Part shown: positions 1 through 36,559 of the stretch, in pieces
How the letters are laid out: each line of letters starts with the position of its first letter
How positions within the stretch are numbered: position 1 is the first letter of the stretch
Notes under the pieces: generated by a model
Seen by the model: only the letters and a program-made list of their open reading frames with translations
Told to the model about the DNA's origin: nothing
Databases searched by the model: none
Translations under genes and position numbers: made by a program
Assembly: GCF_000018605.1 (NCBI RefSeq)
Contig: NC_010003.1
Location: 2,084,501 to 2,148,500 of the forward strand
Origin: Petrotoga mobilis SJ95
Lineage (GTDB): Bacteria; Thermotogota; Thermotogae; Petrotogales; Petrotogaceae
Length of the DNA stretch: 64,000 nt
Direction of reading: 5' to 3'

Positions 1-840
1 TAGATTTTTGTGTTGATATTTGTGTAGATATTTACTTTTTATCCTACCTATGAGGAATGGAAACTTATATCATCCTGTCTTCCTTCGTCTGTGATTTTCT
101 CCCTTTTTATCCTACCTATGAGGAATGGAAACTTCTTATTTCTTTAACTATTTCTGGTTCTAATTGTTCACTTTTTATCCTACCTATGAGGAATGGAAAC
201 CAAGAAATATCTCTTAGTTTTTTTTTTGAACCATATAGTAGCTTTTTATCCTACCTATGAGGAATGGAAACAAGTAAAAAAAAGAGATGATTTCTCACCT
301 CTTTTTTCCTTTTTATCCTACCTATGAGGAATGGAAACGGTTCATTTAAACTAACAATCTTTGTATCTTCTTTTTCTTTTTATCCTACCTATGAGGAATG
401 GAAACATATGAAAAGTAAAGTGAATACTGCTAAAACGCCCCCTTTTTATCCTACCTATGAGGAATGGAAACTCTAAATCTGTGAATACTTTTACTTTTCC
501 TTGAAGCTTTTTATCCTACCTATAAGGAATGGAAACAGCCCCTGAGCTGAAGCTAACATACCCTCGGTGTACCCTTTTTATCCTACCTATAAGGAATGGA
601 AACTTTCCTTCACATATTGGTCTACTTCACCATGTATCCCTTTTTATCCTACCTATAAGGAATGGAAACGCACTCTCCTCTAAAGCTCCTCTTTGAGCAG
701 CTAATCTTTTTATCCTACCTATAAGGAATGGAAACGTATATACAGCATAACGCATTGCATCCATTGCATGGCTTTTTATCCTACCTATGAGGAATGGAGG
801 GGGGTGGAGAGGAATGGAGGGTGAGGGAAAAAATGGAAAC
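1..840 (+). CRISPR. CRISPR array, trailing part (11 full repeats plus a disrupted 12th)
   Basis: Eleven 30-nt repeats start at 35, 103, 171, 242, 309, 376, 442, 507, 574, 640 and 706. They begin CTTTTTATCC and end GAATGGAAAC, and are separated by unrelated spacers of 35-41 nt. Bases 1-34 are the end of another spacer, so the array continues to the left of the window. Repeats 1-7 read TATGAGG in the middle and repeats 8-11 read TATAAGG. A 12th repeat begins at 772 but loses its 3' end at 798, where a G/A-rich block intervenes before a second ATGGAAAC at 833-840. The GAAAC 3' end is the usual crRNA orientation of type I-B-like repeats, so transcription is probably left to right, with the leader outside the window on the left and the oldest spacers here. 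No cas gene is present in the window. Confidence 0.97.
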
Positions 841-6497: not shown

Positions 6498-6520
6498 ATA
6501 TTTTAGAAGGGTTTTCTTTA

Positions 6521-6757
6521 TAGGTGGTTACGAAACAATGGAAGTATTTCTTCATTCTTATAGGCGGATTGCGGAACGATGGGAGTAATTCTTCCTTCTA
6601 ATGGGGTGGGCTGTGGAATGATGGAAGTATTTCTTCATTCTTATGGTCGGACTGCGGAACGATGGGAGTAATTCTTCCTTCTAATGAACGGGATGCAGGA
6701 TGAAAGGGTAAAAGATTCTTTTCCTTATGGGTGGGCAGCGGGGCGAAGGGGCGCTAA
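6521..6757 (+). repeat. GC-rich leader element array: five tandem 40-44 nt units plus conserved terminal unit
   Basis: This fills most of the 424-nt gap between 6388 and 6811. Units are at 6521-6560, 6561-6600, 6601-6643, 6644-6683 and 6684-6727, with a terminal unit at 6728-6757. Units 2 and 4 are nearly identical over their last 39 nt, and units 1 and 3 share their last 20 nt, giving a higher-order period of 83 nt. The terminal unit has G-tracts in a G3-N1-G3-N4-G4-N4-G4 pattern and ends GGCGCTAA. The 35 nt at 6723-6757 recur letter for letter at 11866-11900 and 22975-23009. The array ends 54 nt before the ATG at 6812. Confidence 0.85.
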
Positions 6758-6811
6758 ATATAATGTTTTAGAGCTTTTTAAAATAGTGATTGTATAAAAG
6801 GGGGAACCACA

Positions 6812-7468
6812 ATGGTAGAAAATAAACGATTGAAAGTTACTATTTTATACGATAACACAGTGTATGACAAAGATCTCCAAGCTAATTGGGGATTTTCTGC
6901 TTTGATTGAAGTAGGAAAAGCACCTAAGATACTTTTTGATACCGGTGGAAGTGGAGATATTCTGTTAAATAACATGAAAAAGCTAGGAGTTGATCCATCT
7001 ACAATAGATGAGGTTTTTATATCTCACAACCACTATGATCATGTGGGCGGTTTGTCGGGTTTTCTCTCAAAAAACCCCGATGTAACGGTTTACGTTCCTC
7101 CATCTTTCAGGGGAGTGAAAAATGCGAAAGAAGTTATTACCATAAAAGGTCCTATTGAAATACATGAAGGCATTTATTCCACAGGAGAATTAGAAGGGAT
7201 AGAACAATCTCTTTGTGTAAAAACTGAAAAAGGAATAGTAATCATAGTTGGATGTTCACATCCAAAGATGGAAAATATATTAAAAACCGCTTCAACATTT
7301 GGAGAAGTATACGGAATAATTGGAGGGTTACATGGAACACCTGCAGAATCTTTGAAGGGTTTAAAACTAATTTGTGCAACACATTGTACCCAACACAAAG
7401 AAGATATAAAAAAACTTTTTCCAGAAGCCTATATAGAAGGTGGCGCTGGAAAGGTTGTTGAAATTTAA
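6812..7468 (+). CDS. Metallo-beta-lactamase-fold hydrolase (COG1237-like)
   Basis: A 218-residue cytoplasmic MBL-fold protein. The metal site HNHYDHVGG has its ligands at residues 72, 74, 76 and 77; a GCSHP motif and a GGLHG motif supply further ligands, and an ATHCT motif lies near the C-terminus. This arrangement resembles the group annotated as dihydropterin/ribofuranosyl-aminobenzene phosphate synthase, whose real substrates are mostly unknown. It is shorter than many members (around 250-290 residues). ATG follows AGGGGGAAC. It stands behind a leader-element array and ends 52 nt before a membrane carrier gene. Confidence 0.88.
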   Translation: MVENKRLKVTILYDNTVYDKDLQANWGFSALIEVGKAPKILFDTGGSGDILLNNMKKLGVDPSTIDEVFISHNHYDHVGGLSGFLSKNPDVTVYVPPSFRGVKNAKEVITIKGPIEIHEGIYSTGELEGIEQSLCVKTEKGIVIIVGCSHPKMENILKTASTFGEVYGIIGGLHGTPAESLKGLKLICATHCTQHKEDIKKLFPEAYIEGGAGKVVEI

Positions 7469-11737: not shown

Positions 11738-11900
11738 TGGGTGGGCTGCGGAATAAAAGGGCAATGCCTTAGCTCTTCCTTATGGGTGGGCATCGGGCTA
11801 AAGGGATTAAAATACCCCTTTCTTTATGGGGGGCTGTAGGGATAAAGAGATTAAAAAAACCTTTTCCTTATGGGTGGGCAGCGGGGCGAAGGGGCGCTAA
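11738..11900 (+). repeat. GC-rich leader element array (three tandem units plus terminal unit)
   Basis: Units at 11738-11782, 11783-11826 and 11827-11870 are followed by the terminal unit at 11871-11900, which is identical to the terminal units at 6728 and 22980. Each internal unit starts with a TGGGTGGGC-like G block and then carries a different hairpin, for example AAAGGG 11800-11805 with CCCTTT 11816-11821, before ending CTTA. The array ends 68 nt before the nitroreductase ATG. Confidence 0.85.
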
Positions 11901-14117: not shown

Positions 14118-15409
14118 ATCTTTACCAGAAAGAAGAATACAAAGAGACAGAACTCGGCTTGCTACCGAAAGATTGGGAAGTTGTGAGGTTGGGGGAGGTT
14201 TCTGAACTTCAACAAGGTAAGACTCCTAAAAGAGATGATTATGAAGATTATAAAGGTTATAGAATTATAAAGGTAAAGGATTATGAAAATGAAAATAAAA
14301 TATCAAATATAATAAAGGGGGATAGAAGTTTTGTAAAAACAGATTTTGGGGAAAGATGCAGAATTAAAGAAGGGGATAGTCTTATACTTTCTGCCGCGCA
14401 TTCTTCTAATATCGTAGGTCAAAAAATAGGATATGTCAAAGAAATACCAAGTCAAAAAACTTTTTTTGTAGCTGAATTGATAAGAGTAAGACCTAAAAAA
14501 AACATCATTCCTTATTTCTGCTTTTTATCTCTTATTTTGATGAGTTCCAGAAACCAGATTAGGGAAGAAGTTAAAGGAGGTCATCTATATCCTAAAAATT
14601 TAGGAAAAATAAGAATTCCCCTCCCTCCGCTCTCTGAACAAAAAAAGATTGCCTATGTCCTCTCTTCAGTACAAGAGGCAAAGGAGAAGACTGAGGATGT
14701 TATAAAAGCAACAAAAGAACTCAAAAAGTCTATGATGAATCACCTGTTTACTTATGGGCCTGTAAGTTTGGAAGAAGTTGAAAAAGTACCACTTAAAGAA
14801 ACGGAGATCGGATTGGTGCCTGAAGAGTGGGAAGTTAAAAACTTTGGGGAAATAGTTGAAATTAGAAAAGAAATTATCGACCCTTCAAACGGGAATTATA
14901 TTTATGTTGGATTAGAGCACATTGAATCGGGAAATATAAAGCTTCGAAAAACTGGTCTAAGTAAGGGAGTAAAAAGCGCAAAGTATAAAATCTATCCAAA
15001 TGATATCCTTTATGCAAAATTGAGGCCTTATTTAGACAAAGGTATTCTGGTGGAACAAGAGGGTATTTGCTCAACAGATCTTCTTGTATTTAAAGCAAAA
15101 GAAAATGTATATGCAAGTTTCATAGCGTATTTAGAACATACAAATTATTTTAGAGAATATGCAATTAAAACAATGACCGGAGTGAATCACCCAAGAACTT
15201 CTTGGCGTGCGCTTAGTCAACTTACCATTCCACTCCCTCCCCTCTCTGAACAAAAAAAGATCGCTTCAATTCTCTCAGCGATCGATCAAAAAATTGAGGC
15301 GGAAGAGAGCAAGAAAAAAGCCCTTGAAGATCTCTTTAAATCGCTTTTACATAATCTTATGACCGCAAAAATAAGGGTAAATCATTTGGAGAATGTTTTC
15401 GATGAATAA
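14108..15409 (+). CDS. hsdS: Type I restriction-modification specificity subunit HsdS
   Basis: A 433-residue DNA-recognition subunit with the classic two-fold layout. Target recognition domain 1 spans about 15-190, followed by a conserved helix; domain 2 spans about 235-385, followed by a second helix. Each half ends in PLPPLSEQKKIA and a coiled helix, and each begins with an E-x-GL-P-x-x-W-E-V phrase. The DNA at 14617-14650 and 15227-15262 is nearly identical, which could support domain exchange by recombination. ATG within the end of hsdM. The recognised sequence cannot be predicted by reading. Confidence 0.95.
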   Translation: MELDLYQKEEYKETELGLLPKDWEVVRLGEVSELQQGKTPKRDDYEDYKGYRIIKVKDYENENKISNIIKGDRSFVKTDFGERCRIKEGDSLILSAAHSSNIVGQKIGYVKEIPSQKTFFVAELIRVRPKKNIIPYFCFLSLILMSSRNQIREEVKGGHLYPKNLGKIRIPLPPLSEQKKIAYVLSSVQEAKEKTEDVIKATKELKKSMMNHLFTYGPVSLEEVEKVPLKETEIGLVPEEWEVKNFGEIVEIRKEIIDPSNGNYIYVGLEHIESGNIKLRKTGLSKGVKSAKYKIYPNDILYAKLRPYLDKGILVEQEGICSTDLLVFKAKENVYASFIAYLEHTNYFREYAIKTMTGVNHPRTSWRALSQLTIPLPPLSEQKKIASILSAIDQKIEAEESKKKALEDLFKSLLHNLMTAKIRVNHLENVFDE

Positions 15410-22849: not shown

Positions 22850-23009
22850 TGATATAATATAAAATATGGATCATGAAGTGGGCTACGTGGCTCTTCCCTT
22901 GCTGGGTTAAAGGCTTCAGATCCTTCCTTTTCCTTATGGGTGGGCTGCGGGGATGAAGGATAAAAACTTCTTTTCCTTATGGGTGGGCAGCGGGGCGAAG
23001 GGGCGCTAA
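22850..23009 (+). repeat. Promoter followed by GC-rich leader element array
   Basis: This is the 307-nt gap between divergent genes. TGATATAAT at 22850-22858 is an extended -10 facing right. An irregular unit (about 22874-22936), a standard unit (22937-22979, hairpin GAAG 22955-22958 with CTTC 22967-22970) and the terminal unit (22980-23009) follow, ending 66 nt before the ATG at 23076. With the promoter upstream, the elements would be transcribed as 5' leader RNA. Confidence 0.8.
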
Positions 23010-23075
23010 CAGATGTTTTAAAGCTCCTAAGGATAGTAAAAATATAATAATAAACAAAGTAATGAGGAGATACTT

Positions 23076-24431
23076 ATGAAGAAGGTTCTACTGATATTTT
23101 GCATATTACTTCTTCCTTTTTCCCTTTCTCTATCCTTTAATTCTCCAAGCTTTATTTGGAGTTACGTCACGAGCTACCAAACAGATGAACTAATGTATTG
23201 GAAAGTTAACTATATCCAAAAATTAATAGACCTGATTGAAGATTATTTGCCATTTTTAGAAAGATCAGGCATAACTCTTCCTATCACTTCGGATATTGAA
23301 GTTCATTTTATTGATGTTGGCCAAGGTGATTCAGTTTATATAAAATTACCGAATAATGTTGATATTTTAATTGACGGTGGTAATAATTGGTATGGTGACG
23401 ATGTAGTTACTTACCTCAAATCCCAAGATGTTGATGATATAGAGTATTTGATAGCTACTCATCCTGATGCAGACCATATAGGTGGGTTAGATGATGTTTT
23501 AAAAGCCTTTGAAGTTGAAAATGTCTATGCCCCGGATGTTTCCCACACCACGAAAACCTATAATGATTTTGTTTTAGAAGTGAGAAACGAAGGGACCTAC
23601 ATTAAAACAGCTAAGGCTGGGATTACTTTAATTAATCCTGCTTTAGCGGCTGTGATAGGTTGCCCTTCATTCAGCAATGTGTATTTTGTTGGACCGGTGA
23701 AAAATTATGGAACAGATCTTAATTCTTGGAGTGCTGTTATGAAGTTAGATTTTGGAAATTCTTCTTATCTTTTCACTGGAGATGCCGATAGAATTTCTGA
23801 AAAAGATATGATAGATAATAGTATGTTTTTAAAGGCAGATGTCCTTAAGGTTGGACATCATGGGTCCGATTCTTCGACCTCGCAAGAGTTTTTAAAGGAA
23901 GTTAATCCAAAATATGCGGTTATATCTGTGGGTAAAAATAATAATTACGGTCATCCAGCACAGGAAGTATTAGAAAGATTGGAAATGTGTAAGGTAGATC
24001 TTTTTCGTACAGATTTGCAGGGACATATTATAGCTATTAGTGATGGGAATAAAATAAATTTTAACGTTGAACCAATTAACATTGTTAATCTTATGGAAGA
24101 TGCCCAAGAATCAACACCACAAAAAACTTCTATATTGATTACGCATTTAGATGTTTCTGATGAAAAGGTTACTATCTGCAACAATACTGATATAGACGTT
24201 GATTTAACAGGATGGGTTTTGGTTAGCGAAGTTGGGAACCAAAAGTTTAATCTTCCAGATGGATATATACTTAAAGCTGGAAAATGTGTGAATATTTTGT
24301 CAGGCCGTAACGCAATAGATGAACCTCCAACTAATTTAAAATGGACGGGCGCTTATATATGGAATAACGATAGCGATATTGCAGCCCTCTACGACGCAGA
24401 AGGGGTACTAATAAGCAGGGTTGAATTCTAA
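23076..24431 (+). CDS. Secreted ComEC-like MBL hydrolase with C-terminal lamin-tail domain
   Basis: A 451-residue exported protein with an N-terminal signal peptide (about 1-20). The MBL domain (about 74-330) opens with VHFIDVGQGDSVYIKLP, carries the metal site HPDADHIGG (H129, D131, D133, H134), LFTGDADR and VGHHGSDSSTS, and resembles the DNA-degrading domain of ComEC and secreted relatives. After a linker, residues 350-451 form an LTD (lamin-tail) domain with VTICNNTDIDVDLTGWVL. LTD domains accompany secreted nucleases and phosphodiesterases. A role in extracellular DNA or nucleotide breakdown is inferred. Own promoter and leader elements upstream. Confidence 0.85.
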   Translation: MKKVLLIFCILLLPFSLSLSFNSPSFIWSYVTSYQTDELMYWKVNYIQKLIDLIEDYLPFLERSGITLPITSDIEVHFIDVGQGDSVYIKLPNNVDILIDGGNNWYGDDVVTYLKSQDVDDIEYLIATHPDADHIGGLDDVLKAFEVENVYAPDVSHTTKTYNDFVLEVRNEGTYIKTAKAGITLINPALAAVIGCPSFSNVYFVGPVKNYGTDLNSWSAVMKLDFGNSSYLFTGDADRISEKDMIDNSMFLKADVLKVGHHGSDSSTSQEFLKEVNPKYAVISVGKNNNYGHPAQEVLERLEMCKVDLFRTDLQGHIIAISDGNKINFNVEPINIVNLMEDAQESTPQKTSILITHLDVSDEKVTICNNTDIDVDLTGWVLVSEVGNQKFNLPDGYILKAGKCVNILSGRNAIDEPPTNLKWTGAYIWNNDSDIAALYDAEGVLISRVEF

Positions 24432-24676: not shown

Positions 24677-24786
24677 CATGGGTGGGCTGCGGGGCGAAGG
24701 GGCGCAAATCTAGATAGAATAAATATTTTAAAAATTAAATAATTTTAAATGGGTTACAGGGCAGGGCCCCGGCTAAGGGGCGCTAA
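24677..24786 (+). repeat. Two GC-rich leader elements ahead of guaB
   Basis: The first copy (24677-24708) matches the conserved terminal unit except for a T in place of A in the middle and CAAA in place of CTAA at its end. The second (24749-24786) is diverged, with a GGGCAGGGCCCCGG core, but ends in the same AAGGGGCGCTAA. It stops 46 nt before the guaB ATG. The rest of the 200-nt gap after the tRNA terminator shows nothing else. Confidence 0.7.
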
Positions 24787-26300: not shown

Positions 26301-26520
26301 TATAATAGGCTGATCTTTCACCTACTTAAAGGGGTGGGCTGGCAGGGTCAAGGGATAAAAATTCTTTTATCCTTATGGGTGGGGAGCGGGGAGAAGGGTC
26401 GCTAAGACTAAGATTTAGAAGATATTCTTATAATTAAGCTTCAAAATTAAGGCTCTGATTTTAAAAGGGTCACAGGGCGGAGCCCTCCATCCCAGTTGGG
26501 TTAGGGACCGCAGGTCCCTC
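26301..26520 (+). repeat. -10 box, leader element pair, and a second diverged element
   Basis: TATAAT at 26301-26306 precedes a unit at 26331-26375 and a terminal unit at 26376-26405 that has three substitutions but keeps the G-tract spacing and the end CGCTAA. The first unit has a strong hairpin, AAGG(G)ATAAAA 26350-26360 with TTTTATCCTT 26365-26374. A further GC-rich piece at 26467-26520 contains nested hairpins (GGGCGGAGCCC; GGGACCGCAGGTCCC) and ends 55 nt before rlmN. Confidence 0.7.
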
Positions 26521-26575
26521 GTGGAGTATATGGAAGGGGAAACGATAGTATATATTTTAATGGAGAGGAAGTTAT

Positions 26576-36466: not shown

Positions 36467-36500
36467 TTAATGGGCAAGGATTGGGGCGACGGGGCGCTAA
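36467..36500 (+). repeat. Diverged GC-rich leader element ahead of pfkA
   Basis: It starts TTAATGGGCAAGG and ends in GGGGCGACGGGGCGCTAA, matching the end of the conserved terminal unit. It lies 59 nt before the pfkA GTG, within the distance range seen at the other loci. Confidence 0.65.
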
Positions 36501-36559
36501 ATGAATTTTGGGATTTCTAAATGAAGTATAAAATAATAAAGATTTTTAGGAGGGATACA

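Follow-up and report, generated by a model that had tools for sequence, protein, structure and literature searches.

Petrotoga mobilis SJ95, which we take to be a thermophile, carries a short G-rich unit immediately upstream of a metallo-beta-lactamase-superfamily gene, in the window analysed here (64,000 nucleotides, positions 2084501–2148500 of a single-contig genome of 2,169,548 bases), raising the questions of whether this unit specifies a G-quadruplex (G4) in the mRNA leader and how it comes to lie there. The initial annotation had claimed that the unit fits the formula G3-N1-G3-N4-G4-N4-G4 on the mRNA-like strand, and it does so exactly: the sequence GGGTGGGCAGCGGGGCGAAGGGG at 6729–6751 (plus strand) reads GGG T GGG CAGC GGGG CGAA GGGG and is followed directly on its 3′ side by a CGCTAA tail. 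Defined as four runs of at least three Gs with loops of 1–7, a run-and-loop pattern to which this sequence conforms, canonical G4 motifs number seven in the window, all of them on the plus strand (6729, 11784, 11872, 22981, 24680, 26331, and 26377) and all seven belonging to one dispersed repeat (Table 1). The spacing said to be kept in the variant copies at 24679 and 26376 is indeed kept, at 24680–24702 and, with substitutions and a last run of three Gs, at 26377–26398, and the internal unit at 11783–11826 said to fit the formula does so at 11784–11805. Such runs had been called striking in A+T-rich DNA. The GC content of the window is 34.7%, and 968,514 bases of the genome (45% of it, picked around repeat matches) contain 115 canonical motifs, every one of the 115 in repeat context, compared with 0 or 1 by chance in each of five first-order Markov simulations. 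Across the whole genome, 113 sites lie within three mismatches of the core GCGGGGCGAAGGGGCGC, compared with three for the reversed pattern. The repeat had no match in Rfam 15 at the gathering score; in the window that search returned just a tRNA and CRISPR repeats (a CRISPR-DR2-type array of 11 repeats at 35–735, minus strand).

Table 1 Copies of the repeat in the window and the features associated with them.
Feature	Position	Strand	Evidence or context
Array of 41–44-nt internal units (G-rich stretch + hairpin-forming linker), upstream of terminal unit	6500..6727	+	Repeat families, 41–44-nt spacing
Terminal unit, canonical G4 (6729–6751) + CGCTAA tail	6728..6757	+	Consensus of 91 copies, ATGGGTGGGSWGCGGGGCGAAGGGGCGCTAA
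Right module GTTTTAGAGCTTTTTAAAATAGTG	6765..6788	+	Profile score 19.6
SD (AGGGGG) + ATG, metallo-beta-lactamase-superfamily gene	6799..6814	+	Pfam PF00753, E 3e-13
Second array, internal units; one canonical G4 (11784–11805)	11739..11870	+	Repeat search, G4 motif scan
Terminal unit, G4 11872–11894, then alternative right module AAAGACTAAGCACAGCG	11871..11900	+	
One internal + one terminal unit (G4 22981–23003)	22937..23009	+	Repeat search, G4 motif scan
Right module GTTTTAAAGCTCCTAAGGATAGTA, score 25.0	23015..23038	+	SD..ATG at 23065–23078
Terminal unit variant GGGTGGGCTGCGGGGCGAAGGGG	24679..24708	+	Upstream of guaB (IMP dehydrogenase, ATG 24833)
Second repeat module GTTACAGGGCAGGGCCCCGGCTAAGGGGCGCTAA, G4-less	24754..24786	+	Between terminal unit and guaB
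Internal unit (26331–26354) + terminal variant (G4 26377–26398), hairpin linker AAGGGATAAAAATTCTTTTATCCTT	26331..26405	+	
Associated second hairpin repeat module GGGTCACAGGGCGGAGCCCTCC ... AGGGACCGCAGGTCCCT (second part also GGGACCGCAGGTCCC)	26466..26525	+	Between G4 unit and rlmN-like gene
Decayed copy GGGCAAGGATTGGGGCGACGGGGCGC, no canonical G4	36472..36528	+	Right module 36505–36528 (score 15.1), SD 36548

The 30-nt unit does not stand by itself in the leader but forms the final portion of a longer element. This element consists, in order, of a short left end, none to several G-rich/hairpin units of 41–49 nt, the terminal G4 unit (consensus of 91 copies, ATGGGTGGGSWGCGGGGCGAAGGGGCGCTAA), and a right module, GTTTTAGARTTTCTAAAGACAGTA, that starts about 8 nt after the terminal unit and was found in 84 of the 205 terminal-like units scanned (~40%); a minority of copies have AAAGACTAAGCGCAGCTTAC in place of the right module. 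The internal units upstream are more variable, with a spacing of mostly 41–49 nt genome-wide. Complete short copies, which start with TAGACATTTTAGAAATAAAAT (L174 at 14758, L158 at 3363, and L186 at 3341, all on the minus strand, and L159 at 15115 on the plus strand), consist of left end, G-block, and right module, which puts the minimal element at about 80 bp; longer copies have additional units after the left end and before the terminal unit. Outer modules thus flank a variable number of tandem inner units, an organisation like that of BOX elements. In complete copies CTTTAGAAAT / ATTTCTAAAG are common to both ends. As candidate terminal inverted repeats, these copies have TAGACATTTTAGAAATAAAAT on the left against the right module; the ends are short, and the left one is often lost. 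A blind scan of the 500 nt upstream with the reverse complement of the right module gave no excess of left inverted repeats over Markov sequence; unlike that scan, the left-end consensus taken from complete copies did locate left ends. A search of the neighbourhood of transposase genes for right modules occurring alone turned up, among the non-core matches, mostly solo modules before SDs or chance matches in coding DNA. In one region (G000 ~1396000–1416000; L120 and L121) more than 12 core copies are packed into 16 kb, and GGGCGGAGCCC and GGGACCGCAGGTCCC modules are nested among them.

Comparison of the genome with two sister genomes, over 400 kb of each, indicated that the element is mobile. 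There were 36 gap cases, in which 40–600 nt containing the core in one genome face almost nothing at the orthologous place in the other, some of the 36 being the same site counted in overlapping stretches (about 25 were printed). These filled and empty orthologous sites are found between species that are ~90–95% identical, and the insertion point lies just 5′ of the SD. At L109, for example, the upstream stop codon nearly abuts the SD in the empty site (gttgaaTAAtagggagg), and in two sisters ~130 nt with the element fills the gap between stop and SD. At L128, L153, and L149 a TATAAT-like box lies 5′ of the insertion point, so that the promoter would be kept and the element would become leader. 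Likely target duplications are TTTATT(C/T)CATA at L099, a run of Ts closed by a G (TTTTTTG) at L174, and AAACTC at L161; together with a permutation test (P = 0.01, the set of ends being noisy), these are suggestive of target-site duplication in several copies. The repeat matches the description of a MITE in that it is short and non-coding and in that genomes differ in whether an orthologous site carries it. Two transposase families were searched for, PF00872 (IS256/Mutator type) and PF01797 (IS200/REP type), and both are absent from the genome. Since the G4 motif belongs to a mobile element, its recurrence is explained first by transposition, and since the copies descend from one repeat family, the spacing shared by variants is not by itself independent evidence for a quadruplex.

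The copies are placed with regard to the gene downstream. By simple ORF calls, 102 of 108 intergenic copies are in sense with the next gene and six are antisense; in a stricter set 83 of 86 are in sense and three are not. The distance from the end of the right module to the SD has a mode of 14 nt, with most values at 12–17 nt, and in the 51 copies that have both a right module and an intact G4 the median distance from the last G is 49 nt to the SD (10–90% range 45–54) and 64 nt to the start codon, which bears out the closeness to ribosome sites noted in the initial annotation. Some copies occupy short intercistronic gaps, and others follow a promoter. The downstream genes have no functional class in common; in the window they include, besides those in Table 1, a nitroreductase gene (PF00881, E 3e-26) whose start codon lies ~70 nt 3′ of the terminal unit at 11871–11900, and the rlmN-like gene (ATG 26576; PF21016/PF04055) downstream of the copy at 26331–26405. 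Leaders in Thermotoga maritima are just 11–17 or 26–32 nt long (PMC3636130), and the element would therefore multiply leader length.

Related genomes show that the G-block and the right module differ in age. With up to three mismatches allowed, the core occurs in five of six genomes of the genus Petrotoga and in none of 97 other genomes of the class; a congener at ~74% nucleotide identity (G005) has no core copies at that threshold. The exact core had no match in public genome, viral, and plasmid collections, from which the organism's own and near genomes were possibly left out. Several contigs of related assemblies open inside the repeat (G002:C56:1-58, G002:C65:1-50, G001:C13:1-48, and G004:C35:1-37), so the copy numbers in draft genomes are underestimates. 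The right module is found in other genera of the family: three genomes, from two genera, carry 91, 25, and 7 copies, with none of the reversed pattern. In the regions read from G023 (L275–L283 and L287–L304) and G025 (L284–L286 and L305–L306), about 91 right modules of another genus precede SDs and have a G4-free hairpin body, and tandem copies occur. The other-genera copies that we read, mostly from G023, lie mostly 10–16 nt before an SD, in sense, and have a different body, made up of GGGCGGAGCCC and TTCGGTACAAGTACCGAA hairpins with no G-block; GGGCGGAGCCC bodies similar to the module at 26466–26525 of the window precede the right module there. By this sequence comparison the right module is older than the G-block. 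Because other genera carry the right module at the same place without a G4, the G-block is a Petrotoga addition to, or replacement within, an older leader-inserting family, and a G4 is not essential to this type of element. In a single copy, L131 (near 2460 on the minus strand), the G-block in front of the right module is replaced, at the same place, by a perfect hairpin, GCGCCCC-GAA-GGGGCGC.

The linkers between units fold as AAGG...CCTT-type hairpins, better than dinucleotide shuffles do (mean z −0.84, s.e. 0.10, n = 80). A general hairpin in the 50 nt directly 5′ of the terminal unit has only weak average support (z −0.51), and the signal becomes clear when folding is restricted to true inter-unit linkers. 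The terminal G-block is predicted to fold into a G4 RNA: with the G4 option of ViennaRNA, the minimum-energy fold includes a G4 for 28 of 45 leaders at 37 °C and for 0 of 45 at 60 °C, a result given little weight, the temperature model for G4s being rough. The right module was considered as an RNA hairpin and rejected (mean z −0.10).

The best reading, in our view, and one for which our confidence is evenly balanced, is that the unit at 6728–6757 is the terminal unit, nearest the SD, of a small mobile element that is non-autonomous and whose hairpins and G4 act on ribosome loading. This reading starts from what the analysis shows: the repeat family, its modular anatomy, its presence and absence at orthologous sites, and the sense orientation, fixed spacing, G-run retention above chance (below), and hairpin linkers. 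The element would insert, in sense, into a 5′ leader or an intercistronic gap, leaving ~14 nt from the end of its right module to the SD, and would be transcribed within the mRNA. The terminal G-block would then form a three-tetrad RNA G4, making with the upstream hairpin units a bulky block ~49 nt before the SD, and the A/U-rich and probably little-structured stretch made up of the right module and the next 14 nt would leave the SD open. Such a block would be expected to favour forward ribosome loading, with translation of the downstream gene raised or stabilised, and the element may spread as selfish DNA whose copies are retained where they are harmless or helpful to that gene. Translation is enhanced, both in E. 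coli and in vitro, by an engineered RNA G4 located 46 bp upstream of the SD, and more so (up to 12-fold) when a hairpin precedes the G4; the explanation preferred in that study is a physical barrier steering the ribosome towards the start codon, with bulk mattering more than the kind of structure (PMC11087576). In those leaders, as in the element on this reading, a hairpin lies upstream, then comes the RNA G4, then ~46–49 nt to the SD. Given this likeness in order and spacing, the hairpin at L131, and the hairpin bodies of other genera, we think it most likely that the element has a leader barrier or translation-enhancing role, with selfish spread as its source. The E. coli leaders are constructs, whereas the putative case in Petrotoga, a presumed thermophile, is natural. 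Against this reading stand the weak average structure of the 50 nt 5′ of the terminal unit, the G4-free bodies that accompany the right module in related genera, and the ViennaRNA result at 60 °C.

The main rival is a purely selfish element that brings no benefit to the host, its G-block and hairpins being recognised by the mobilising enzyme and its antisense copies having been purged; antisense transcripts would be C-rich and unstructured, a good loading site for Rho, and hence be removed. The clear mobility of the element and the lack of a functional class among the downstream genes are as this explanation would have them, and so is the conservation of non-G core positions described below. 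By itself, however, it does not explain why the right module and the G4 stand at fixed distances of 14 nt and 49 nt from the SD, nor why loops drift with the G-runs kept and the G4 is lost in internal units, and we regard it as somewhat unlikely.

Whether substitutions avoid the G-runs was assessed against a null in which the observed number of changes is placed at random over the core. G-tract spacing that is not conserved across copies had been named in advance as the finding that would speak against a quadruplex; the formula is in fact kept in 57 of 102 unique variants, compared with 30.4 ± 3.9 expected, the variants being phylogenetically related rather than independent and some copies having been found by their G-runs. 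With rates matched to the G/C and A/T positions outside the runs, 47 of 82 keep it (28.1 ± 3.8 expected). Among orthologous copies, a G4 is kept by 92 of 110 (63.5 ± 3.9 expected) and by 40 of the 57 with at least two changes (17.2 ± 3.3 expected), and in 85 orthologous pairs changes fell on 56 of 1190 G-run sites (0.047) compared with 103 of 1105 other core positions (0.093; S and W omitted). A canonical G4 is present in 154 of 190 terminal units (81%) compared with 56 of 398 internal units (14%), the former figure being inflated because terminal units are defined partly by their fourth G-run. Retention beyond that predicted by random substitution is what a selected G4 would show, and these comparisons partly support it. 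Non-G positions are conserved too (AA in loop 3, GC in loop 2, and the CGC tail), and part of the conservation of the G-runs could therefore reflect recognition of the site by a protein or a transposase. What stands of the quadruplex reading is thus a pattern far above chance, on the sense strand, near the SD, with its G-runs retained; recurrence has transposition as its first explanation, and conservation extends to non-G positions.

An RNA- or DNA-binding protein might instead read GGGTGGGSWGCGGGGCGAAGGGGCGC in the leader by its sequence, with no quadruplex formed. Consistent with this possibility, A17, A18, G9, C10, and the CGC tail change in orthologues about as slowly as many G-run positions. 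Subfamilies in which several letters have changed nevertheless retain four G-runs (GGGGTGAAAGGG, GCTGGGCGAAGGGGAGC, and GGGGGAAGGG, the last with a two-base deletion), which argues against a site read letter by letter, and we consider one improbable. Even less probable is that the G-rich strand acts at transcription and not at translation, as an R-loop or DNA G4 behind RNA polymerase or by blocking Rho or nucleases: that strand is the non-template one in 102 of 108 copies, and copies lie both behind promoters and in short intercistronic gaps, but the spacing is fixed to the SD and not to the promoter.

In its organisation the element resembles the BOX elements of Streptococcus pneumoniae, boxA-(boxB)n-boxC, which can alter the expression of downstream genes (PMC3049150): both are small, modular, and mobile, have fixed outer modules with variable internal tandem units, and lie near genes. 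In the part of that source available to us, BOX, RUP, and SPRITE elements are enriched between convergent genes and no G4 is described for BOX, whereas the Petrotoga copies (102 in sense, six not) occur almost only before start codons, at a fixed distance from the SD. The element is like a MITE in being short, non-coding, and present in many copies, with insertion polymorphism, ends that share CTTTAGAAAT / ATTTCTAAAG, and apparent target duplications in several copies; it differs in its short ends, the left one often lost, in having no partner transposase by PF00872 or PF01797, and in its strongly sense, SD-proximal placement. With REP/BIME sequences it has in common that they are short, extragenic, G+C-rich, and clustered, but the Petrotoga units are single-sense and not alternating palindromes, and a Y1 (TnpA-REP type) transposase was not found by PF01797. 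The GGGNATC repeats of Xanthomonas and Nostoc are likewise genome-wide and intergenic, and are transcribed and G4-forming, as the Petrotoga repeat would be; they are simple heptamers lying antisense upstream of genes, whereas the Petrotoga unit is mobile, has a 41–49-nt period, and carries its G-runs in sense (PMC4692102). The Petrotoga repeat does not qualify as a tandem GGGNATC heptamer, its unit sequence and period being different.

Natural RNA G4s are scarce in bacterial leaders, and the E. coli study refers to a depletion of endogenous 5′UTR RNA G4s (PMC11087576). Here a single organism has apparently ~100 leader G4s of nearly one geometry. The larger finding is one of BOX/MITE-like mobile leader elements tied to ribosome-binding sites, with a Petrotoga branch that has a conserved G4, and it raises the new question of how a mobile element comes to share the orientation of the gene and to keep a fixed distance from ribosome-binding sites. 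A tentative extension, which we think possible though not probable, is that a Petrotogaceae family of mobile elements lands or is kept just upstream of the ribosome footprint and delivers an interchangeable structural block (hairpins elsewhere, a G-quadruplex in Petrotoga), and would so serve as a portable translation enhancer; if true, this would amount to a transposon-borne leader cassette common to ~100 unrelated genes. The matched filled and empty leaders in sisters of ~90–95% identity offer a natural test of whether translation is altered by a G4 upstream of the SD.

The DNA analysed also contains a 50-nt direct repeat, 84% identical between 14615–14664 and 15227–15276, that resembles the conserved PLPPLSEQKKIA segment found in specificity subunits of type I restriction systems. 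In addition, the motif ATTATA-N18-GTCAA, published for P. mobilis, is enriched (25 occurrences compared with seven for neighbouring spacings) and corresponds, on the other strand, to a sigma-70 promoter.
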